Of a stretch of 45,982 nucleotides of DNA, positions 11,204 through 45,891 are shown in pieces (within the stretch, counting starts at the first letter, position 1; each line of letters begins with the position of its first letter). Origin of the DNA: a virus; the IMG/VR virus record IMGVR_UViG_3300021964_009275, positions 1 through 45,982 of that record; one strand, written 5' to 3'. The notes under the pieces are model-generated. The model did no database searches and was not told the DNA's origin. It saw only the letters and a program-made list of their open reading frames with translations. Position numbers and translations under genes: made by a program.

Positions 11204-12205
11204 ATGAATTTTGCTATTAACGGTACCTGTTCTAAAGGGTGTTCGTTTTGTTTTACTACAGAAGATGCTCGTCTCCGTCACACACTAGGAGAAATGAGTA
11301 TTTCCCAGTTAGATAAGTATTTATCTTTTTACGGCTTTTATAAAAGTAAAAGACCTGTTCATATTCTTGGAGGTGAACCAACTCAACATTCAAATTTTAC
11401 CGGAATACTAGATTTTATAATTAGTAAAAGATTAAAAATAAATTTAGTTAGCAATTTACTATTTGGTAGAAAAACATTAGAACATATAGTTAAAAATATT
11501 AAACATTTTGATTGGATACTTCCTAATGCAGCAGAATTAGATCAACGAAATAGAATAACTGTTTGGAGAAGAAACTATTTAGAAATTTATAAAGCTTTTA
11601 CAAACAATCAAGGATTTGAAAAAAGCCCTAGGTTATATCTTGCTTTAACTTTATCTAGTAATTTTAAGGAAGTCAAAATGTTCGAATATATTAAATGGCT
11701 CATAAAAGAAGCTAACTATAAAGTAAAAGCTATTAGATTAGGATTAGATTTAACAGATACATATTTAATTAACAACAAAGAGTTAGGTCAAGAAATCGTA
11801 AAAATTATTAAATTTTGTAAAATTAATAATATAATAGTACAATCTGATTGTCAAGTACCTCCCTGTCTATGGGAAGGTAAAACTAAGGAAGCAGTTTTAG
11901 AAAATTCTTTAAATTACGCTACTTTTAAAGTAGACAATTATGAAACCATATGCGGGTTTATGCCTATGGATGTCTTACCTAATGGTAGCTCTATCCACTG
12001 TTATCCTTTACAGCATAAAGTTAAAATTAATAACGTACTAAAAGTAGATGGAGTAGATACTTTAGATAGTTTATATGATAAGTACGATGAGTTATATAAA
12101 GAAAACCATAAAAATTATACATTACCCAAAGATTGTTTAGATTGTGTTTTTTATAAAGACCAATGTAACGGTATATGCGGAGGATGTTTAGAAGGAAATG
12201 AATAA
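11204..12205 (+). CDS. Radical SAM enzyme with SPASM-like C-terminal cysteine cluster
   Basis: 333 residues. The radical SAM cluster motif CX3CX2C is at C9, C13, C16 (CSKGCSFC), very close to the N-terminus, followed by the GGEPT motif at residues 56-60 that binds the SAM amino group in this superfamily. The C-terminal ~90 residues carry many Cys (CGFMPM, HCYPL, and DCLDCVFYKDQCNGICGGC), as expected of a SPASM or twitch auxiliary iron-sulfur domain. Such enzymes often modify peptides or small molecules; the substrate is unknown here. The start is preceded by AAAGGTTAT, similar to the leaders of 27930 and 32736. The stop overlaps the next gene by 8 bases. The neighbours (U32-like protein, methyltransferase) suggest a common pathway. 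Confidence 0.88.
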   Translation: MNFAINGTCSKGCSFCFTTEDARLRHTLGEMSISQLDKYLSFYGFYKSKRPVHILGGEPTQHSNFTGILDFIISKRLKINLVSNLLFGRKTLEHIVKNIKHFDWILPNAAELDQRNRITVWRRNYLEIYKAFTNNQGFEKSPRLYLALTLSSNFKEVKMFEYIKWLIKEANYKVKAIRLGLDLTDTYLINNKELGQEIVKIIKFCKINNIIVQSDCQVPPCLWEGKTKEAVLENSLNYATFKVDNYETICGFMPMDVLPNGSSIHCYPLQHKVKINNVLKVDGVDTLDSLYDKYDELYKENHKNYTLPKDCLDCVFYKDQCNGICGGCLEGNE

Positions 12206-13235
12206 AATTTTTTCCATACCACTTAACCCTAGAATGGATCAGGAGATGTTCTTTAATGAATTTCTACCTTTCTTATCTAAATATAAAGACTGGATTTACG
12301 ATATATATTTTACCTGTAGGATAGCTCCTTTCACTCAAGATGCAATGGGAGAACTAGTTGAAGGTCAATCTAAGGATATAGTATTAGATAATGCTTTTCA
12401 AATTCAGGAAAAACTAGGAATAAAAATCAGTGCCACTTTCAATAATATTAATGTATCTCCAAGTTACTCTAACTATAAACTTTTTATAGATAATTTAAAA
12501 CCTTTATACGAAAGGGGATTAAGAGGTATAACTTTAGCTCATGCTCACTGGGTTGCATTAGGAATTAAAAAATACTTTCCAGAACTGGAAATTAAAAATA
12601 CTATATTGAGAAAAGTAGCTACAGGACAAGATTTTATCTACAATGCAGAACAAGGTTTTGACTATATAAATGTAGATAGAATTTTGATGAGAGATATAGA
12701 AGAGTTAAAAAATATTAAAAGAGCACAAGATTATTTTTTAGATAAAACAGGTAAGTTAGTAAAGATAGCTCTATTGACAAACGAAGGCTGTTTAGGCAGG
12801 TGTCCGATGATGGACGAACATTATTCTTATAATAATTTAAGAGGTAAAAATGACTTACCTTATTTTAGACATGAAATTTCTAAAGTTACTTGTGAATATA
12901 AATGGGAAAATACTATCAATGCTTTTTTCTTTAAAGCAGCTACTATACCTCCTTTTAAAGATGATTATGATGAATACCTCAAACATATACAAGTATTTAA
13001 AATGCACGGCAGGGATAATATTAGTAGAATGAGAGAAACTATGGAAATTATCAGAAACTATGCGAACGATAAGGCACTGCTAGCTGATTCTTCTAAACTC
13101 TACATAGAAGGTGTACCTCATGAACAAGTTAGAGGATGGAGAAATAAGATTAAAAAATGTAAGTTTCAATGTTGGGACTGTAACTACTGCGATATTGTAG
13201 CAGATCATAAAAAAAAGCAACTTGGACTTAAATAA
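12198..13235 (+). CDS. Peptidase U32-like iron-sulfur protein
   Basis: 345 residues reading as a TIM-barrel protein (ITLAHAHWVALGIKKYFP, then FDYINVDRILMRDIEEL). It has the U32-type motif LLTNEGCLGRCPMMDEH with C198 and C202, and a C-terminal Cys cluster C321, C325, C328, C331 (CKFQCWDCNYC); C40 and C232 are further candidates. Known U32 members (RlhA, TrhP, UbiU/UbiV) are iron-sulfur proteins in hydroxylation or RNA modification, not classical proteases. It overlaps the radical SAM gene by 8 bases, so the pair is very likely co-translated. I recall related proteins in other marine phages, but the reaction is unknown. The 3' end holds a run of eight A and overlaps the next gene by 14 bases. 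Confidence 0.75.
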   Translation: MNKIFSIPLNPRMDQEMFFNEFLPFLSKYKDWIYDIYFTCRIAPFTQDAMGELVEGQSKDIVLDNAFQIQEKLGIKISATFNNINVSPSYSNYKLFIDNLKPLYERGLRGITLAHAHWVALGIKKYFPELEIKNTILRKVATGQDFIYNAEQGFDYINVDRILMRDIEELKNIKRAQDYFLDKTGKLVKIALLTNEGCLGRCPMMDEHYSYNNLRGKNDLPYFRHEISKVTCEYKWENTINAFFFKAATIPPFKDDYDEYLKHIQVFKMHGRDNISRMRETMEIIRNYANDKALLADSSKLYIEGVPHEQVRGWRNKIKKCKFQCWDCNYCDIVADHKKKQLGLK

Positions 13236-13884
13236 CTATATAGAACATATAGAAACCTCAGTTAAATACAGTAATTTAGAAGTTTCTAAGTTAACTCATG
13301 ATGTATTATCTATAGATGGTTTGACTAGTAATAAAGTAAAAATGTTTCTAAATAACTTATGTAGTTTAGACAGTAGTATTTACTTAGAATTAGGAGTTTA
13401 TAAAGGAGGAACATTCTGTAATGCTCTATACCATAACGACTGTAAAGGAATTGGTATTGACAATTGGTCTAGTAACTTAACCCCTAATACTTCTATAGTT
13501 ATCAATAATACTAATGAAAATATACAAGAAGTTTTTTTGGAAAATATAAAAAAATATACTATATTAGATAATATTAATGTTTATCAAGGTAGATTTCAAA
13601 CATTTAATTTCGATATTATAGAAAAACCTAATATTATTTTTTACGATGGAGAAATTAACCAAATAGAAATTTATTCTACCTTAGCTAATTTATTTAAAAA
13701 TATAACAGGAACATTTATTATGGTATTTGACGATTGGAACTGGACTAATAAATTAGTAAAAGCATTTTTAAAAGATAGTAAAGTAAAAGAACTCTACAGT
13801 AAAGAAATTTTTACTGAAATTGAAGACCCTGAAGATTACTGGAACGGGTTAGGAATTTTTATACTTAATAATAATAATTTATGA
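13222..13884 (+). CDS. Class I SAM-dependent methyltransferase-like protein
   Basis: 220 residues. The glycine-rich SAM-binding loop ELGVYKGGT is at residues 56-64, followed by an acidic residue at the end of the next strand (GIGIDNW, D80) and a later FYDGE segment. This matches the TylF/Methyltransf_24-type fold, whose members methylate sugars or small molecules. The reading frame allows no ATG near the overlap; TTG 13222 is the best start, with an in-frame TAG a few codons upstream. It overlaps the U32-like gene by 14 bases, so reinitiation is likely. The next ATG is at residue 41, which would remove part of the fold's N-terminus. The substrate is unknown; sugar or virion modification is possible given the context. 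Confidence 0.72.
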   Translation: MDLNNYIEHIETSVKYSNLEVSKLTHDVLSIDGLTSNKVKMFLNNLCSLDSSIYLELGVYKGGTFCNALYHNDCKGIGIDNWSSNLTPNTSIVINNTNENIQEVFLENIKKYTILDNINVYQGRFQTFNFDIIEKPNIIFYDGEINQIEIYSTLANLFKNITGTFIMVFDDWNWTNKLVKAFLKDSKVKELYSKEIFTEIEDPEDYWNGLGIFILNNNNL

Positions 13885-37943: not shown

Positions 37944-38759
37944 ATGGCAAAAAATGTCGTAGTGTCCTTATCAGGAGGGATGGACTCCTCAACTTTATTA
38001 CTTAGATGTTTATCTGAGTATGACAATGTAACAGCTTTATCATTTGATTACGGTCAAAAGCATAGAGTGGAACTTGAAAGAGCTCAATCATTAGTAGACT
38101 ATATTAATGAAAATTGTACTGACGAAAATTGTTTTGGTGGGTGTAGAGTTAACTATCAAGTTATTAAACTTGATGGACTAGTTAACTTACTTAACTCTAA
38201 CCTTGTAGAAGGTGGGGATGATGTACCGGAAGGTCATTACGAAGAAGATAACATGAAAGCAACAGTAGTACCTAACAGAAATAAAATATTTGCTTCTTTA
38301 GTTCAAGCAGTAGCTTTATCAGCTGCTAATGCTAATGGAAACGATACTGATATTGCATTAGGTATTCATGCTGGTGATCATGCTATCTACCCTGACTGTA
38401 GACAAGAGTTTAGAGATGCTGATGATGCAGCATTTAGAATAGGTAACTGGGAATCTGATAAAGTAGGTTACTTTACACCTTATTTAGAAACTGATAAGTA
38501 TGGAATTTTACAAGATGGTCAAAAGCTTTGTGGAGAACTTGGCATTGATTTTAACAGCGTTTATAGTAGGACTAACACTTCTTATAAGCCTTACCCTAGC
38601 GGCAATAGTGATTATAAGTCCGCTTCATCTGTTGAGCGAATCGAAGCGTTCATTAAATTGGGCGTGGATGATCCTGTGCAATATGAAGATGAAACTGGAC
38701 CGGTTGATTACGGAGTTGCGAGAGATCATGTTGAAAAGCTTTTAGCTGAGTACGCATAA
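37944..38759 (+). CDS. queC: QueC-like 7-cyano-7-deazaguanine synthase lacking the zinc cysteines
   Basis: 271 residues. The PP-loop SLSGGMDSSTLLLRC (SGGMDSS at 10-16) and SFDYGQKH are typical of QueC, which turns 7-carboxy-7-deazaguanine into preQ0 with ATP and ammonia. VVPNRNKIFASLVQAVA and ALGIHAGDHAIYPDCRQEF are further family blocks. The C-terminal zinc site, normally SCY...CG.C..C.R, reads TSYKPYPSGNSDYKSASSVE (212-231): none of the four Cys remains. A Cys group at C58, C63, C67 in an insertion could bind metal instead. Upstream of tRNA-Ala; QueD and QueE genes follow within 2.5 kb. Likely feeds DNA modification, though the altered site could signal a changed product. Confidence 0.87.
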   Translation: MAKNVVVSLSGGMDSSTLLLRCLSEYDNVTALSFDYGQKHRVELERAQSLVDYINENCTDENCFGGCRVNYQVIKLDGLVNLLNSNLVEGGDDVPEGHYEEDNMKATVVPNRNKIFASLVQAVALSAANANGNDTDIALGIHAGDHAIYPDCRQEFRDADDAAFRIGNWESDKVGYFTPYLETDKYGILQDGQKLCGELGIDFNSVYSRTNTSYKPYPSGNSDYKSASSVERIEAFIKLGVDDPVQYEDETGPVDYGVARDHVEKLLAEYA

Positions 38760-39972: not shown

Positions 39973-40434
39973 ATGGGAAAATTTCAATCAACAAAAGTAT
40001 TTGACGGTTTCTCTACTGTATTTCGTCAATGGAAAGCAACAACTACTCATTGCCAATATTTACATGGTTATGGAGTATCTTTTAAACTTTGGTTTGAAGG
40101 AGAATTAGATGAAAGAAATTGGGTATGGGATTTTGGAGGAATGAAAAGAGCTGTTGGTACTATAGATGGAAAGACTCCTAAGGAATGGATGGATTATATG
40201 TTTGACCATACTTTTATAGTAGCAGAAGATGACCCTTACCTTCAATCATTTCTTAAAATGGATGGAGTAGTAGCTCAATTAAGAATTATACCCGCCACAG
40301 GAGCAGAACAGTTTGCTAAATACATTTATGATAAAGTAAATCCTTTTATACTTAAGGAAACTGATAACAGAGTAAAAATAGCAAAAGTAGAATTTAGTGA
40401 ACACGGTAAAAACTCAGCAATTTATGTCCCTTAA
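39973..40434 (+). CDS. queD: QueD-like 6-carboxytetrahydropterin synthase (variant zinc site)
   Basis: 153 residues. The fold markers are present: THCQYLHGYGVSFKLWFEGE, WVWDFGGMK, MFDHTFIVAEDDPYL and EFSEHGKNSAIY. QueD converts dihydroneopterin triphosphate to 6-carboxytetrahydropterin, the step before QueE. In standard QueD, zinc is held by three His and catalysis uses Cys27. Here Cys (C27) and one His (H31) are kept, but the HGH motif is HGY (Y33) and the first zinc His position is F17; H26 may compensate. I recall this HGY subfamily in other phages and bacteria, so it is probably a natural variant. The stop lies inside the start region of queE. Confidence 0.82.
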   Translation: MGKFQSTKVFDGFSTVFRQWKATTTHCQYLHGYGVSFKLWFEGELDERNWVWDFGGMKRAVGTIDGKTPKEWMDYMFDHTFIVAEDDPYLQSFLKMDGVVAQLRIIPATGAEQFAKYIYDKVNPFILKETDNRVKIAKVEFSEHGKNSAIYVP

Positions 40435-41200
40435 AAGAATAGAAGATTATAATAAAAACTTACCGGTATTAGAATTATATACCGCAGTACAGTCAGAAGG
40501 TAGTAGACAAGGTTATCCTACTATTGTAGTTAGAACAACAGGATGCACCCATAGATGTTATTTTGGAGAAGGAGGATGGTGTGATTCATGGTATACAAGT
40601 ATTCATCCAGAAAAAGGAACATACTGTTTTAAAGATATTATAGATATGTACAAAGAACATCCTCATATTAAAGAGATGATGTTAACAGGAGGTTCTCCTA
40701 CTATGCATCCTGCATTAGTAAATGAACTTACTCATTTTGCTCATAAAAATGATATTTTTATAACGATAGAAACAGAAGGTAGTCATTTCCTTGAAACTGA
40801 TTACCCTATAAATTTACTTTCAATATCTCCTAAGTTTTCCAACTCAGTTCCTAAATTAGGAGTACTAACTCCACAAGGTAGAGAGACTAATCAGAGAATG
40901 ATAGATAAACATAATAGCCTTAGGTTAAATAAAGAAGCTATTAAGAAATCAATAAATTATCATGATGATTATCATATTAAACCTGTATTAGATAAAGATT
41001 TATCAATGGTAGGAGAAGTAGAAGAGTTTTTAAAAGATTTAGAAATACCAGATAACAAAGTATGGGCAATGCCTGCAGGAGATGATAGAGATGCTTTATT
41101 TGAAAGTTATGGACCAGTAATGAATTTTGTGAGAGATAGAGGTTGGAGATACACTGGAAGATCCCATATTATGGCTTTCGGAACTGAAAGATGTGTATAA
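40424..41200 (+). CDS. queE: QueE-like 7-carboxy-7-deazaguanine synthase (radical SAM)
   Basis: 258 residues from ATG 40424; an in-frame GTG at 40397 would add nine residues deep inside queD, so the ATG with an 11-base overlap is preferred. The N-terminus LPVLELYTAVQSEGSRQGYP is the QueE signature. The cluster Cys are C41, C45 and C53 in GCTHRCYFGEGGWCDSW, a CX3CX7C spacing instead of CX3CX2C. EMMLTGGSPTMHP provides the SAM-binding GG motif, and ITIETEGSHF and LLSISPKFSNS are family blocks. It contracts the pterin ring to 7-carboxy-7-deazaguanine for QueC. A ferredoxin gene lies 225 bases downstream. Confidence 0.88.
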   Translation: MSLKRIEDYNKNLPVLELYTAVQSEGSRQGYPTIVVRTTGCTHRCYFGEGGWCDSWYTSIHPEKGTYCFKDIIDMYKEHPHIKEMMLTGGSPTMHPALVNELTHFAHKNDIFITIETEGSHFLETDYPINLLSISPKFSNSVPKLGVLTPQGRETNQRMIDKHNSLRLNKEAIKKSINYHDDYHIKPVLDKDLSMVGEVEEFLKDLEIPDNKVWAMPAGDDRDALFESYGPVMNFVRDRGWRYTGRSHIMAFGTERCV

Positions 41201-41218
41201 TTAATTAAAATATATAGT

Positions 41219-41425
41219 ATGACAAAAGAATTATTTATTATGTTAAAAACATCTGCAGAAGCAGATAAAGCAAAAGCACTACTCTCCCTGGAGTTATTAG
41301 GAAATAAAGCAGTAGGTATAGGAGATCACTCAACTGAAGACTTTTATAAAAATGCTGAAGAAGCGTTAACTACATTAGTAGATGCAGATGATAGATTAGA
41401 AGCTTTAGATAGGTATTTCAAATAA
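41219..41425 (+). CDS. Small uncharacterised acidic protein
   Basis: 68 residues, helical, Ala/Glu/Asp-rich (MLKTSAEADKAKALLSLELL, ending DADDRLEALDRYFK). It lies between queE and the ferredoxin and overlaps the latter by one base (TAATG), so it is co-translated. Function unknown. Confidence 0.68.
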   Translation: MTKELFIMLKTSAEADKAKALLSLELLGNKAVGIGDHSTEDFYKNAEEALTTLVDADDRLEALDRYFK

Positions 41426-41679
41426 TGAGCTACATTATCGGTAGTAAATGTATAGGAGTTAAAGATGGGGCTTGTATAGAAGTCTGCCCTATAGACGACT
41501 GTATAGTAGAGGGAGAAACCTCAATGTATATCAACCCAGAAACATGCATAGATTGTGGGGCTTGTGAGATGGAATGTCCTGTTGAAGCTATTTATGATTG
41601 TGAAGAAGCTGCTATAGAAGACGGAGAAGAAAATGCAGTTAAAATGAATTATGAATTCTTCGGATTTAAATTTAGTTAA
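41425..41679 (+). CDS. Seven-iron type ferredoxin (FdxA-like)
   Basis: 84 residues. Cys positions are C9, C17, C21 (KCIGVKDGACIEVCP) and C41, C44, C47, C51 (CIDCGACEMECP). The C9-x7-C17-x3-C21 spacing, without a central Cys in the first motif, fits the [3Fe-4S][4Fe-4S] ferredoxins such as Azotobacter FdI: C9, C17, C51 for the 3Fe cluster and C21, C41, C44, C47 for the 4Fe cluster. The C-terminus ends in an aromatic stretch (MNYEFFGFKFS). Position two genes after QueE suggests that it supplies electrons to the phage radical SAM enzymes; it could also serve the RNR or U32-like proteins. Confidence 0.88.
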   Translation: MSYIIGSKCIGVKDGACIEVCPIDDCIVEGETSMYINPETCIDCGACEMECPVEAIYDCEEAAIEDGEENAVKMNYEFFGFKFS

Positions 41680-41681
41680 CT

Positions 41682-41978
41682 ATGACATTAGAAGAAGTAA
41701 TTAATCAATCCCCAACATCAGACTTTGCTACTATAAAATTATTTGTTAATGAAAATCCTGCTTTTGATTTCAAGGATTTTAACACATCAATATCACTTAT
41801 CTCTTTTCCCATCAGCCCAGAAAATGAAATGGATATTTTAAATCTACAGGAAGTAATAAACTTCTCAAAAGATTTGGATTACCCAGATAATATTCTTACC
41901 TTTATATGTGAAGAGAAAGAAGTAAAACTAAATACAATTAAATGGAAAGAAAATCAATTAATTTTTTACTCCTCCTAG
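41682..41978 (+). CDS. Small uncharacterised protein
   Basis: 98 residues, no signal peptide; mixed alpha/beta appearance (TSDFATIKLFVNENPAFDFK, then LDYPDNILTFICEEKEVKLN). It starts two bases after the ferredoxin stop and overlaps the nuclease start by 37 bases. No known family; its place suggests co-expression with the ferredoxin or nuclease. Confidence 0.6.
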   Translation: MTLEEVINQSPTSDFATIKLFVNENPAFDFKDFNTSISLISFPISPENEMDILNLQEVINFSKDLDYPDNILTFICEEKEVKLNTIKWKENQLIFYSS

Positions 41979-42553
41979 TATTATTTTTTAGCTGTACTAA
42001 ACCTGAGGTAGTAATAGCACAAGACCTTAGAGAAAGAGTAGAATTCAATATAGATGATCTATTTTCAGGAGTTTACTCTGAGGTATTAGAACAACCGTTA
42101 GAGGTTACTTACATAGTTCCTTGCCCTAATGGAGATGCATCAAGAGATGGACTAGATTTTTATGAAGATGCAAACATTCATACATCAGACGATGATGATT
42201 ATAGGAACAATGTTTGGGATAAAGGTCATTTAGCACCAGCAGCAGCATTTTCCTGTGATAGGGAAACGATTAAAAAAACCTTTACCTTTCTTAACTCAGC
42301 CTTACAGCATCAGAGTTTAAATAGAGGAATATGGAATAGGCTAGAAACTTTCGAAAGAGATCTAGCCAATTTTTTTGAGGTAAGTGTCAAAATAGAGGTT
42401 TTATTTGAAGGTAATCCTCAAGTGTTACCTAGTGGAGCTACTGTACCGTCTGGATTTATTAAGACTATTAAATTTGCAGATCAGTCAGTTAGCTTTAAGT
42501 TTCCAAACGCTGATACTTCCGGAACGGATTGGATTGACTATCGACTTGATTAA
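41942..42553 (+). CDS. Lipoprotein DNA/RNA non-specific endonuclease (NucA/Serratia type)
   Basis: 203 residues. The N-terminus SINFLLLLVLFFSCTK is a lipoprotein signal with lipobox Cys C18, so the protein is exported and membrane-anchored. The nuclease core is intact: WDKGHLAPAAAF with general base H96 (DRGH in Serratia nuclease, here DKGH), N118 in FLNSALQ, and LNRGIWNRLE with metal ligand N127 and E135. The spacings N118-N127-E135 equal those of N110-N119-E127 in the Serratia enzyme. It would degrade DNA or RNA outside the cytoplasm, either to block incoming rival phage DNA or to scavenge nucleotides. The start is in the 3' end of the previous gene. A phage-encoded surface nuclease is unusual. 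Confidence 0.85.
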   Translation: MERKSINFLLLLVLFFSCTKPEVVIAQDLRERVEFNIDDLFSGVYSEVLEQPLEVTYIVPCPNGDASRDGLDFYEDANIHTSDDDDYRNNVWDKGHLAPAAAFSCDRETIKKTFTFLNSALQHQSLNRGIWNRLETFERDLANFFEVSVKIEVLFEGNPQVLPSGATVPSGFIKTIKFADQSVSFKFPNADTSGTDWIDYRLD

Positions 42554-42555
42554 TT

Positions 42556-42729
42556 ATGACAGAAAAAGAATTTATTAACTGGCTTAGAGGGTTTACCCAA
42601 GGAGCTCATCAATACAATATTCTCCCAAGTCAATGGGATGATTTGAAACAGAAACTATCTACTGTTGGAAAGGAATCCAAATATCCTTATAAAATTGATA
42701 AGAGTATTTGGACAACAACGATAGCGTAA
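42556..42729 (+). CDS. Small phage protein (57 aa)
   Basis: ATG 42556 to TAA 42727-42729, starting two bases after the nuclease stop. EKEFINWLRGFTQGAHQYNI and LPSQWDDLKQKLSTVGK follow the F..WL.GF pattern of small hypothetical proteins common in T4-like phages. It shows that the surrounding region, including the TonB-dependent receptor downstream, is phage DNA and not host DNA. Function unknown. Confidence 0.72.
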   Translation: MTEKEFINWLRGFTQGAHQYNILPSQWDDLKQKLSTVGKESKYPYKIDKSIWTTTIA

Positions 42730-42766: not shown

Positions 42767-45286
42767 ATGAGAAAACTCGTTACGTTGCTTTTAATATTAG
42801 GAGTAACAATGGCCTTTGGTCAAGAGAGGGTACAGTACAAAGATACTATACTAACTCAAAATTTAGAAGAGGTTGTAGTCTCTTCTGGAGTAATCACAGT
42901 CGCTAAAGAAAGAAAGACACCGATTGCTTTAAGTAAGATTTCTGCAGCTGAAGTTCAATTGAAAGTTGGAAATCAAGAATTTCCAGAAATCATGAACAAC
43001 ACACCTGGAGTTTACGCAACAAAACAAGGAGGAGGATACGGAGATAGTCGTATTACCTTAAGAGGTTTTGATCAGCGTAATACTGCTTTCCTTATCAATG
43101 GCCAACCGGTTAACGATATGGAAAATGGATGGGTATACTGGTCGAATTGGCAAGGTTTAACAGACGTTGCTTCTGGTATTCAGATTCAAAGAGGGTTAGG
43201 AGCCTCAAACTTAGCAGTTCCAACAGTAGGTGGAACTGTTTCTATTTTCACTAAGAGTGCCGAAAAGGCAGAAGGTGGTTCATATTCTACTGTAGTAGGT
43301 AATGATGGGTATTTTAAAAATACTGTTGCTTACAATACAGGATTGAATGAGAACGGATGGTCTTCTTCTTTCTTGCTATCAAAATGGCAAGGAGATGGAT
43401 ACATCTACAATACTTCTGGTGAAGGATGGACTTACTTTGGAGCAATTGGATATGCACCAGTAGATTCTAAGCACTCTCTTAACTTCTCTTTACTTGGAGC
43501 AGGTCAATGGCACCATCAAAGAGACGTTTGGGTATCTATTAGAGATTATCAAAACTTCGGTAGTGAAGGTATTGATAGAAGATGGAACTCAAATGGAGGA
43601 ACTTTAAATGGAGAAGAGTTCTCTATGAGAAGAAACTTCTATAACAAACCACTAGCTACTTTTAACTGGGATTTTGACATCTCAGATAACATTAAATTAG
43701 CAACTTCTTTCTACGGTTCAGCCGGTAGAGGTGGAGGAACAGGACCAAGAGGTAGAAACTACTACAATGCGGAAACTGATATCCTACCCTTTAGAAAGGA
43801 TCTTACTGAGCACTATTTAGAAAACGGTAGAGGTTCGAGAGATGAAAACGGTTTTATAGATTATGATGCTGTAGTTAGCTATAATAGATCTAACACTGAA
43901 GGTTATTCAGGAGGTTTATCACAGTATACTGGACTTAAAATTGGTTCTAACGGATATAGAGACGATGGAGTAAATAGATCAGCTTTAATTAGAAGAGCTT
44001 CTATGAACTCACATGACTGGATTGGAGCTATTTCTAATCTAAATATTAAATCTGGTAAGATGACCTATAGTGTTGGTATCGATGTAAGAGATTACAAAGG
44101 ATATCACTACAGAGTTTTAAATAACCTAATGGGACTAGATGGATACTATTCAACTGGTAATAAAAACTCAGAAGGTCAAATTATCGAAACTACTGTCGAA
44201 GCTAATCCATTTAAGGATACTGGAATCAAAGGTCCTAAAATAGATTACTATAATGTAGGTAAAGTAGGGTGGCAAGGTATTAACGGTATGGCTGAATACG
44301 ATAATGACGGTATAACTGCCGTACTACAAGCCGGATATTCAAATAAATCATTTCAAAGAATCGATTATTTTGATCAACCAACTAATTTTGAATCAGAAAA
44401 GAAGAATGTAGGAGGAGGATATGTTAAAGGTGGTGCAAACTATAACTTTAACGAAAACTCTAACGTATTCTTTAATGCTGGATTTATTTCAAGACAGCCA
44501 AGCTTTGACGCTGTATTTCCTAACTATGCTAACTTTGTAAATCCTGATCTACAGAATGAAGAAATTCAATCAATAGAGTTAGGGTATGGATTCGTAAATG
44601 AAGCATTAAACGTTAAAGTTAATGTATACTCTACTAACTGGGGTAATAGATTTGTAACTAGATCATTATCTAACCAGCAAGGAGTAGATGGTTCAGCTCA
44701 ATTTAAAGATATCGATGTAAGACATAATGGTCTTGAAGTTGAAGCTAAATATAGACCAACTGGATACTTACAGTTTAAAGGTATGGTTTCAATCGGAGAT
44801 TGGAAGTATACAAAAGATTTCGAAGCAGAATTATTTGATGATAATCAACAATCAATTGGTACAGGTACTTTATACCTAAAAGATGCTAAAGTTGGTGATG
44901 CTGCTCAATTTGTTTCTTACCTAGAAGCAGATTGGAGAGTAAGCGACTTTAACTTCGATATAGGATATAGATTTGTAGATAATTTATATGCTGATTATTC
45001 AATTACAGATTCTGAATTTACTCAACCAGGTAATAAAGGAGCATTGAAGCTTCCTTCTTACGGTTTAGTAGACGTAGGATCAACTTGGAAATTCAAGTTA
45101 TTCGGTAACGATACAAGATTAAGATTGAATATAAATAACTTATTAGATACAGTTTACATAGCTGAATCAAATACAAATATTCATGCTGCTGATGGAGCTA
45201 CTCAATGGAACGGAGTAGACGTTAGAAACTCAGTATGGTTTGGATTTGGAAGAACATGGAACGCTTCTCTTAAGTATAGATTCTAA
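42767..45286 (+). CDS. Full-length TonB-dependent outer-membrane receptor
   Basis: 839 residues, complete. Signal peptide MRKLVTLLLILGVTMAFGQ, then a TonB-box-like segment KDTILTQNLEEVVVSSG (25-41). The plug domain follows (~45-165): FPEIMNNTPGVYATKQGGGY, DSRITLRGFDQRNTAFLING, QIQRGLGASNLAVPTVGGTV. The remaining ~670 residues form a 22-strand-type barrel, with LRLNINNLLDTVYIAES near the end and the terminal aromatic LKYRF for BAM recognition. No N-terminal carboxypeptidase-like or Sus domain. It would import a large ligand such as an iron chelate, vitamin or glycan fragment using the host TonB system. Phage-like small genes flank it on both sides and a terminator follows. Ligand and timing are unknown. 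Confidence 0.93.
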   Translation: MRKLVTLLLILGVTMAFGQERVQYKDTILTQNLEEVVVSSGVITVAKERKTPIALSKISAAEVQLKVGNQEFPEIMNNTPGVYATKQGGGYGDSRITLRGFDQRNTAFLINGQPVNDMENGWVYWSNWQGLTDVASGIQIQRGLGASNLAVPTVGGTVSIFTKSAEKAEGGSYSTVVGNDGYFKNTVAYNTGLNENGWSSSFLLSKWQGDGYIYNTSGEGWTYFGAIGYAPVDSKHSLNFSLLGAGQWHHQRDVWVSIRDYQNFGSEGIDRRWNSNGGTLNGEEFSMRRNFYNKPLATFNWDFDISDNIKLATSFYGSAGRGGGTGPRGRNYYNAETDILPFRKDLTEHYLENGRGSRDENGFIDYDAVVSYNRSNTEGYSGGLSQYTGLKIGSNGYRDDGVNRSALIRRASMNSHDWIGAISNLNIKSGKMTYSVGIDVRDYKGYHYRVLNNLMGLDGYYSTGNKNSEGQIIETTVEANPFKDTGIKGPKIDYYNVGKVGWQGINGMAEYDNDGITAVLQAGYSNKSFQRIDYFDQPTNFESEKKNVGGGYVKGGANYNFNENSNVFFNAGFISRQPSFDAVFPNYANFVNPDLQNEEIQSIELGYGFVNEALNVKVNVYSTNWGNRFVTRSLSNQQGVDGSAQFKDIDVRHNGLEVEAKYRPTGYLQFKGMVSIGDWKYTKDFEAELFDDNQQSIGTGTLYLKDAKVGDAAQFVSYLEADWRVSDFNFDIGYRFVDNLYADYSITDSEFTQPGNKGALKLPSYGLVDVGSTWKFKLFGNDTRLRLNINNLLDTVYIAESNTNIHAADGATQWNGVDVRNSVWFGFGRTWNASLKYRF

Positions 45287-45301: not shown

Positions 45302-45333
45302 AAAGGGGGAGTTTTTTACTCCCCTTTTTTTTC
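45302..45333 (+). terminator. Rho-independent terminator after TonB-dependent receptor gene
   Basis: AAAGGGGGAGT pairs with ACTCCCCTTT (one unpaired G), loop of T, followed by a T-run to 45332. It lies 16 bases after the stop codon. Confidence 0.85.
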
Positions 45334-45345
45334 TTATATTTAAAT

Positions 45346-45480
45346 ATGGACACATTAGCAGAGCTTTGGCAATCAGGAGGGTATAAAGAACTTACTAACT
45401 GGATTGATGGTTTCATAGGTGTTAGCTTAGTGATGGGTTTATACTATTATAAAAAATGGGTTGATCACAAGTTTAAATAA
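45346..45480 (+). CDS. Small membrane peptide (44 aa)
   Basis: ATG 45346 to TAA 45478-45480. DTLAELWQSGGYKELTNWID is followed by one hydrophobic segment, GFIGVSLVMGLYYY, and a basic end (KKWVDHKFK), as in single-pass inner-membrane peptides. It starts 13 bases after the terminator and the next ATG is three bases after its stop. Function unknown. Confidence 0.62.
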   Translation: MDTLAELWQSGGYKELTNWIDGFIGVSLVMGLYYYKKWVDHKFK

Positions 45481-45483
45481 GTT

Positions 45484-45891
45484 ATGAGTAAAAAGGTTTT
45501 TATAACGTGGGAAGACGTTAATAGTTTATTGGATACTATTCATCAACAATCCAAAGGAGAGATAAGCTATGTCACAGGAATACCCAGAGGCGGTACCATA
45601 TTAGCAGTTCTCTATTCACATAGGTTTAATGTAGAGTTTATGGATTACAGAAGTAATAAGTATTCCAACCTTTTAATCCTAGACGATATTTCTGATTCTG
45701 GAGAAACTTTTACTAAACTCAAAGAAGAGTACGATATTCCAAAATATGCAGCTCTTCATTATAAGGAGACTTCTAATTTTAAACCTGATTATTTTGCGAA
45801 AAAAATAGATTCAGATTTCGGTTGGATTGTATACCCTTGGGAAAGATTAGATTCAGAAACAGTACAAGATTATTTGCTTAATCAAAAATAA
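45484..45891 (+). CDS. Phosphoribosyltransferase (xanthine/hypoxanthine type)
   Basis: 135 residues. The PRPP-binding loop LLILDDISDSGETF has the paired acids D67, D68; TGIPRGGTILAVLYSHRF is the upstream PPi-loop region; FGWIVYPWERLD is close to the end motif of xanthine-guanine PRTases. The protein would salvage a purine base to its nucleotide for phage DNA synthesis, or handle a deazaguanine base. It is slightly short compared with E. coli Gpt (152). Three bases after the small membrane peptide gene. Confidence 0.82.
   Translation: MSKKVFITWEDVNSLLDTIHQQSKGEISYVTGIPRGGTILAVLYSHRFNVEFMDYRSNKYSNLLILDDISDSGETFTKLKEEYDIPKYAALHYKETSNFKPDYFAKKIDSDFGWIVYPWERLDSETVQDYLLNQK

Follow-up and report, generated by a model that had tools for sequence, protein, structure and literature searches.

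Phages are known to carry auxiliary genes for nutrient uptake, among them PstS and PnuC-NadR-type salvage genes, with which uptake and salvage are reprogrammed for the replication of the phage itself, as is proposed here for a locus in IMG/VR record IMGVR_UViG_3300021964_009275 (45,982 b; this whole stretch is referred to as the window). Those systems operate at the inner membrane or in the periplasm, whereas the locus in the window joins a gene for a TonB-dependent receptor (TBDR), a putative energised importer of the outer membrane, to one for an exported nuclease. The closest described system is that of the marine megaphage Mar_Mega_1, the only published case of a phage TBDR found in the open-access literature (PMC9723777); its receptor is likewise phage-encoded and full-length, and it is named 'SusC' there and interpreted as serving sugar uptake, a single case with no link to a nuclease reported in the text consulted. 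A structural search of BFVD returned one full-length viral TBDR match, A0A8D9FQQ5 ('uncultured marine phage'), which is probably the Mar_Mega_1 protein and is 12% identical to the window TBDR in the structural alignment.

In IMG/VR, 421 viral-contig stretches encode relatives of the window TBDR, of which the best 80 (67-79% identity) were kept; the queries of viral contigs covered this one family and three other TBDR queries. Given these and the published megaphage case (PMC9723777), the view of an earlier first-pass annotation that phages do not encode TBDRs is too strong. What is new is the company which the TBDR recurrently keeps in phages, namely exported nucleases and nucleotide-salvage enzymes; no description of a nuclease-receptor cassette was found in the open-access literature. 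Judging the substrate from these neighbours, we consider the gene to encode a functional TBDR from marine Bacteroidota that phages have retained within a nucleic-acid-scavenging cassette, and give this reading a probability of roughly 0.58.

The receptor gene and its product

The receptor and its parts are located as follows (aa, amino acids; ORF, open reading frame).

42767..45286, + strand: TBDR, 839 aa (ORF, Pfam, AlphaFold2/Foldseek)
42767..42820, + strand: probable TBDR signal peptide, aa 1-18 (AFG/Q), by inspection of the sequence
42863..42880, + strand: TonB-box-like segment LEEVVV, aa 33-38, retained by the majority of phage and host relatives
42908..43204, + strand: plug domain, aa 48-146 (Pfam PF07715, 2.5e-11, above the curated cut-off)
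43232..45283, + strand: beta-barrel, about aa 156-839, with C-terminal Phe (Pfam PF00593; AlphaFold2 strands)
45302..45328, + strand: intrinsic terminator downstream of the TBDR (stem of 11 pairs followed by a U run; pattern and fold)

The reading frame is intact, with an ATG start and no internal stop codons, and the Pfam TonB_dep_Rec match (PF00593, aa 313-792, 2.7e-15) was also above its curated cut-off. The signal peptide was read by eye as MRKLVTLLLILGVTMAFG/Q. Among 57 deduplicated phage relatives a similar TonB-box segment is present in most of those with a complete N terminus, and the C-terminal Phe of the window TBDR is present in all 57. The first-pass description of a complete TBDR, from signal peptide and TonB-box-like segment through plug and barrel to terminal Phe, was thereby confirmed, and the hairpin and U run bear out its claim of a dedicated terminator. 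An AlphaFold2 model based on an alignment of 41 relatives (pLDDT 83, pTM 0.82) was compared with the PDB using Foldseek, and the best matches were all TBDRs (PqqU at 1.4e-41, FhuA, FecA), with identities of 10-15%; a phmmer search of the PDB with the protein gave no matches, and its PHROGs assignment is phrog_5687, 'unknown function'. The GC content at third codon positions (0.23) lies inside the range of the neighbouring genes.

Neither structure nor curated models pointed to a ligand. Numerous TBDRs are about equally near in fold, which makes the structural matches uninformative on this point, and among the curated ligand-specific models the best NCBIfam score was 16.9 bits, with the cut-off at 925. 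A SusC-type domain (CarboxypepD_reg-type N-terminal extension) was absent from the Pfam scan of the window TBDR, and no SusD-like match was found among the flanking window ORFs scanned with Pfam.

The phage TBDR is under purifying selection: dN/dS was 0.13-0.15 among the window TBDR and its relatives in L024 and L041, and 0.07-0.18 for all phage TBDR pairs except one very close pair at 0.27. Mean identity among phage relatives was 91% in the plug region (aa 48-165) versus 72% in the barrel. Conservation of the TonB box and of the plug, together with the low dN/dS, supports energised import, and the window TBDR is predicted to use the TonB of the host.

Nuclease and salvage genes beside phage receptors

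The first-pass annotation placed the receptor between small phage-type genes; its flanks are indeed phage genes, but its direct neighbours are an exported nuclease (upstream) and a purine phosphoribosyltransferase (PRTase; downstream).

39973..41679, + strand: conserved flank queD-queE-p1811-ferredoxin, an anchor for the locus both where relatives have the TBDR and where they lack it
41942..42553, + strand: exported DNA/RNA non-specific endonuclease (EndoNS), 203 aa (Pfam Endonuclease_NS, 2e-23)
42556..42729, + strand: c148, a conserved phage ORF of 57 aa between EndoNS and the TBDR (synteny)
45346..45480, + strand: possible ORF of 44 aa with a single transmembrane segment, between the terminator and the PRTase (by inspection)
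45484..45891, + strand: purine (xanthine-type) PRTase, 135 aa (Pfam Pribosyltran, 5.4e-7; phrog_8995)

The window EndoNS has the DKGH catalytic motif and is a probable lipoprotein (Cys18), the Cys after the signal segment being retained in most of the EndoNS relatives listed. The NCBIfam xanthine PRTase model matched the window PRTase at 5.1e-9, below its cut-off. Two unrelated families of exported nuclease were found beside phage TBDRs, Endonuclease_NS in the window and S1/P1 in other phages (PF02265, 1.7e-62, with invariant metal-ligand residues and reading frames beginning with signal-peptide-like segments). In the latter the gene order is TBDR, S1/P1, a small three-helix protein (S14) and a P-loop kinase (KIN; AAA_28, phrog thymidylate kinase). 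The salvage genes beside phage TBDRs are likewise drawn from unrelated families (xanthine PRTase-like, HPRT-like, APRT-like, nucleosidase and AAA_28/thymidylate-kinase-like), and in another group of phage TBDRs IMPDH lies directly upstream.

The window is from a contractile-tailed phage (sheath, tube, baseplate, tail fibres, UvsX, DnaB, NrdAB and QueC/D/E). Its gene order, queD-queE-(p1811)-fdx-EndoNS-c148-TBDR-prtase, was found again in other metagenomes on an 86-kb contig (L024/L171) and a 191-kb contig (L041/L172), with identities to the window of 76% for the TBDR, 77-79% for EndoNS and 84-86% for QueD. The TBDR is a host-derived metabolic gene inside a phage genome, with conserved synteny. 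Eleven relatives (L173-175, L179-186) have the same locus without the TBDR, EndoNS being followed by the PRTase either directly or after c148, which thus also occurs in relatives lacking the receptor. The same EndoNS-PRTase gap is filled by a TBDR-S1P1-S14-KIN block in L062, L071, L259 and L261, and L273 has this block without an EndoNS call.

Linkage was assessed by permutation in 43 deduplicated phage TBDR loci of 12 genes or more. Of these, 17 contained an exported nuclease, which lay no more than two genes from the TBDR in 17/17 (random centre mean 3.5; 0/5000), and a salvage gene was present in 27 loci and lay no more than three genes away in 24/27 (random mean 7.8; 0/5000); the sampled loci are related, so that the permutation overstates their independence, a caveat that is countered by the recurrence of two nuclease families and several salvage families. 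The linkage of the TBDR to exported nucleases and salvage genes is non-random. With S1/P1 as the starting point, this TBDR family was found upstream in 24 of 29 informative deduplicated phage loci, a reciprocal count that is not wholly independent since the S1/P1 seeds were partly drawn from TBDR loci.

In L258 an unrelated, BtuB-like TBDR of 658 aa lies upstream of S1/P1. It belongs to a second phage TBDR family (L258:892-2868 and L320:6001-7977); the cassette in L258 reads TBDR-epimerase-S14-S1P1-KIN, and in L320 an EndoNS is found near the relative of this receptor. The 252-kb contig of L320 also has a TBDR of the phage-like type A described below (L034), giving two receptors on one viral contig. 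S14 itself (L031:12469-12714 and relatives), which lies between TBDR, S1/P1 and kinase, is a three-helix membrane-type protein of 72-82 aa with a conserved QTQ.TK.YNLSLLN motif and without matches in Pfam, PHROG or the PDB. A SemiSWEET-like transporter was considered for it, and the fold search found nothing significant. A different membrane protein of 74-77 aa replaces S14 in L037, L039 and L260, its resemblance to SemiSWEET/YgjV having been noted by eye only. Megaphages (L322-L325: LR745206, LR756501, LR756502 and Lak-A1) also carry TBDR-like ORFs, about 670-720 aa long and distantly related to the window family, and within 9 kb of these there were no matches to hidden Markov models of the cassette nuclease and salvage genes.

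Exchange of the receptor between phages and hosts

Phage TBDRs were found in several unrelated backgrounds (que/EndoNS, dnaB-nrdB-nrdA, GroEL/IMPDH/clamp-loader and glutamine-synthetase-type). In a FastTree phylogeny, hence an indicative one, of TBDRs from phages (57) and hosts (50), 17 phage/host changes were needed, at least 11 of which are forced by well-supported branches; there have been many separate transfers of the TBDR between phages and hosts. The window TBDR clusters with those of L024 and L041 (support 82), and this trio is nested in a clade (99*) with 19 rows, 11 of them from phages and 8 from hosts. Except for two remote sequences, the phage S1/P1 proteins form one clade, and its sister is Arcticimaribacter (joint branch supported at 99*). 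With one S1/P1 phage clade and TBDR lineages that are mixed with hosts, it appears that descent within phages accounts for most of the nuclease genes, and exchange for the receptors.

The chromosomal pgi locus of the hosts holds two allele types, A (phage-like) and B, the latter about 40-46% identical to phage TBDRs. Pgi-linked type-A receptors of marine Bacteroidota (Polaribacter L096, Robiginitalea L115) share 65-77% identity and the same plug and barrel with the phage protein, and most have the C-terminal Phe; they differ in that the phage copies lie in phage operons with nucleases or salvage genes, and in that numerous hosts have an N-terminal extension which is missing from the window TBDR. 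Alleles A (host L096, L115 and L124) and B (L137, L138 and L142), about 43% identical, occupy the same post-pgi site in related genera, and metagenome-assembled genomes (MAGs) of distant Bacteroidota and Balneolota carry type A in a scattered pattern. The pattern at the pgi site resembles allele replacement by horizontal transfer, perhaps via phages. A type-B query of the viral contigs returned only type-A phage proteins (41-46%) among the 80 loci kept, which argues against host contamination and indicates that phages carry one allele type. A further host receptor, TBDR2, which adjoins an EEP nuclease and DUF5689, was rejected as a phage form since it makes up a separate clade and its viral-contig query found no relatives; the TBDR2 query peptides are less conserved, and this control is weak on its own.

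Receptor-nuclease pairing was also seen in hosts. In Arcticimaribacter MAGs the TBDR is paired with S1/P1. In the gut Bacteroidales locus L251 an operon reads TBDR-lipoprotein-lipoprotein-EndoNS-EEP nuclease, with signal-like sequences on both nucleases, and EndoNS is also downstream of the TBDR in a similar arrangement in L326. The L251 receptor belongs to the same broad TBDR family (about 33% identity to the window) and likewise lies beside an exported Endonuclease_NS; it differs in being bacterial and in having an N-terminal extension and lipoprotein partners. Both records (L251, MT837128; L326, MT837399) were deposited as 'Bacteriophage sp.', and L251, with RadA and other bacterial genes, looks like a Bacteroidales chromosome. 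Among forty further Bacteroidota loci TBDR-nuclease linkage was found in few cases, so that the host evidence is suggestive and not general.

Substrate, role and competing explanations

Since the conserved neighbours are exported nucleases and salvage enzymes, the substrate is likely to be nucleic-acid breakdown products. The exported phage nuclease (Endonuclease_NS here, S1/P1 elsewhere) would cut DNA or RNA at the cell surface or in the periplasm, and the phage TBDR, powered by the TonB-ExbBD of the host, would carry the products (oligonucleotides, nucleotides, nucleosides or their phosphate) across the outer membrane; phage salvage enzymes (PRTase, a kinase of nucleoside monophosphate or nucleoside type, and ribonucleotide reductase) would then convert them to deoxynucleoside triphosphates for phage DNA synthesis. 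We infer that the TBDR is expressed during infection. Also counted in favour of scavenging are the relatives without the TBDR, in which EndoNS stays beside the PRTase, the exact position of the TBDR or the TBDR-S1P1-S14-KIN block between these two genes elsewhere, and the receptor-nuclease pairings of gut Bacteroidales and Arcticimaribacter. Of the two roles proposed in the first-pass annotation, feeding of the infected cell is the better supported, although its likely substrate is not iron, vitamin B12 or a glycan, and replacement or masking of the adsorption receptor is the less supported.

A broader proposal, held tentatively and rated a little short of even, is that marine Bacteroidota phages carry a complete outside-in foraging pathway for nucleic acids (exported nuclease, energised importer and salvage enzymes), that infected cells thereby become scavengers of DNA and RNA, possibly from lysed neighbours, and that the receptor has repeatedly been swapped with hosts. 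If true, some marine phages equip the infected cell with an active importer of external nucleic acid and do not depend solely on nucleotides and phosphorus recovered from the host chromosome. This would have a bearing on phage production under nutrient limitation and on what becomes of dissolved DNA in seawater, and it would provide a first substrate clue for a widespread, unassigned TBDR family of Bacteroidota found repeatedly at the pgi locus.

Several observations weigh against scavenging. No nuclease or salvage gene was found within four genes of the TBDR in 21/57 deduplicated phage loci (some of these at contig ends), and 78/80 phage EndoNS loci had no TBDR within the flank (at most about 6 kb, often shortened by contig ends), so that the nuclease must also be useful without the receptor. 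As the phage S1/P1 sequences are essentially one clade, the S1/P1 linkages are in part non-independent events. Phages cluster nucleotide genes in any case, and linkage to NrdA or IMPDH alone would prove little. S1/P1 was present in 93/149 Flavobacteriaceae genomes, mostly alone, and among the loci read a TBDR adjoins it only in two from Arcticimaribacter. The chromosomal orthologue usually follows pgi and has no substrate operon; the genes that usually lie beside it in hosts (pgi, M23 peptidase, tryptophan dioxygenase-like and UvrC, named by eye) were uninformative as to the ligand.

The strongest competing explanation, which we regard as unlikely, is uptake of another substrate (iron, cobalamin, a glycan or a phosphate ester), the neighbours reflecting only the usual clustering of phage metabolism genes. 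It is consistent with fold matches that do not fix the substrate, PqqU, FhuA and FecA all being near, with the lack of a clue at the usual chromosomal locus, and with the SusC-like sugar uptake proposed for the megaphage TBDR (PMC9723777). Exported nucleases, however, are not ordinary genes of phage nucleotide metabolism, yet they lay within two genes of the TBDR wherever they were seen in the sample, and no SusD-like, siderophore or B12 genes were seen beside the phage TBDR.

The main non-nutritional rival is superinfection exclusion, in which the TBDR would replace or titrate the receptor of rival phages and the exported nuclease would cut incoming DNA in the periplasm; we judge this rather improbable. 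TBDRs are classical phage receptors, and among the PDB matches are T5 pb5-FhuA and FhuA in complex with Llp, an exclusion lipoprotein. The TBDR slot is moreover exchanged, related S1/P1 genes (L007, L258) accompanying unrelated TBDRs, and the host alleles at the pgi locus are also of two divergent types. Exclusion nevertheless leaves the neighbouring purine PRTase, kinase and nucleosidase unexplained, and an extra receptor does not remove that of the host. A decoy would have no need of the plug and TonB box, both of which are well conserved, the plug most strongly, and the gut host relative shows the same receptor-nuclease linkage in an operon. The neighbour of the window TBDR is, furthermore, not a small receptor-binding lipoprotein (Llp/Cor type); it is Endonuclease_NS with its catalytic motif.

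Far less probable is that the gene is a transduction passenger, moved by phages between hosts without a role in infection; the scatter of type-A alleles at the pgi locus among distantly related hosts would fit this, but the purifying selection on the gene in phages (dN/dS 0.07-0.18 for most pairs), its recurrent capture and its fixed position within functional gene clusters would not. An artefact, in the form of host contamination of viral contigs or a chimeric contig end, has a negligible probability: the TBDR is close to the end of the window, some host DNA is present in IMG/VR and two GenBank records labelled as phage that contain a relative (L251, L326) have the appearance of bacterial contigs, but the chimeric junction considered in the first-pass annotation is excluded by the identical order on the independent 86-kb and 191-kb contigs, phage genes surround numerous other copies, the relatives without TBDR and the type-B and TBDR2 controls speak against it (type-B host alleles, common in genomes, are absent from the viral-contig matches kept and the TBDR2 query gives none), and the broken frame also considered there is unsupported, the relatives being intact.

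Besides the proposed scavenging cassette, the window encodes QueC, QueD and QueE (37944-38759 and 39973-41200), and FolE is found in relatives, which suggests 7-deazaguanine modification of phage DNA or tRNA. At 12198-13884 a phrog_1458-type protein occurs as two overlapping ORFs of 345 and 220 aa; PHROG 36869 matches the first half alone, and the split may therefore be natural.
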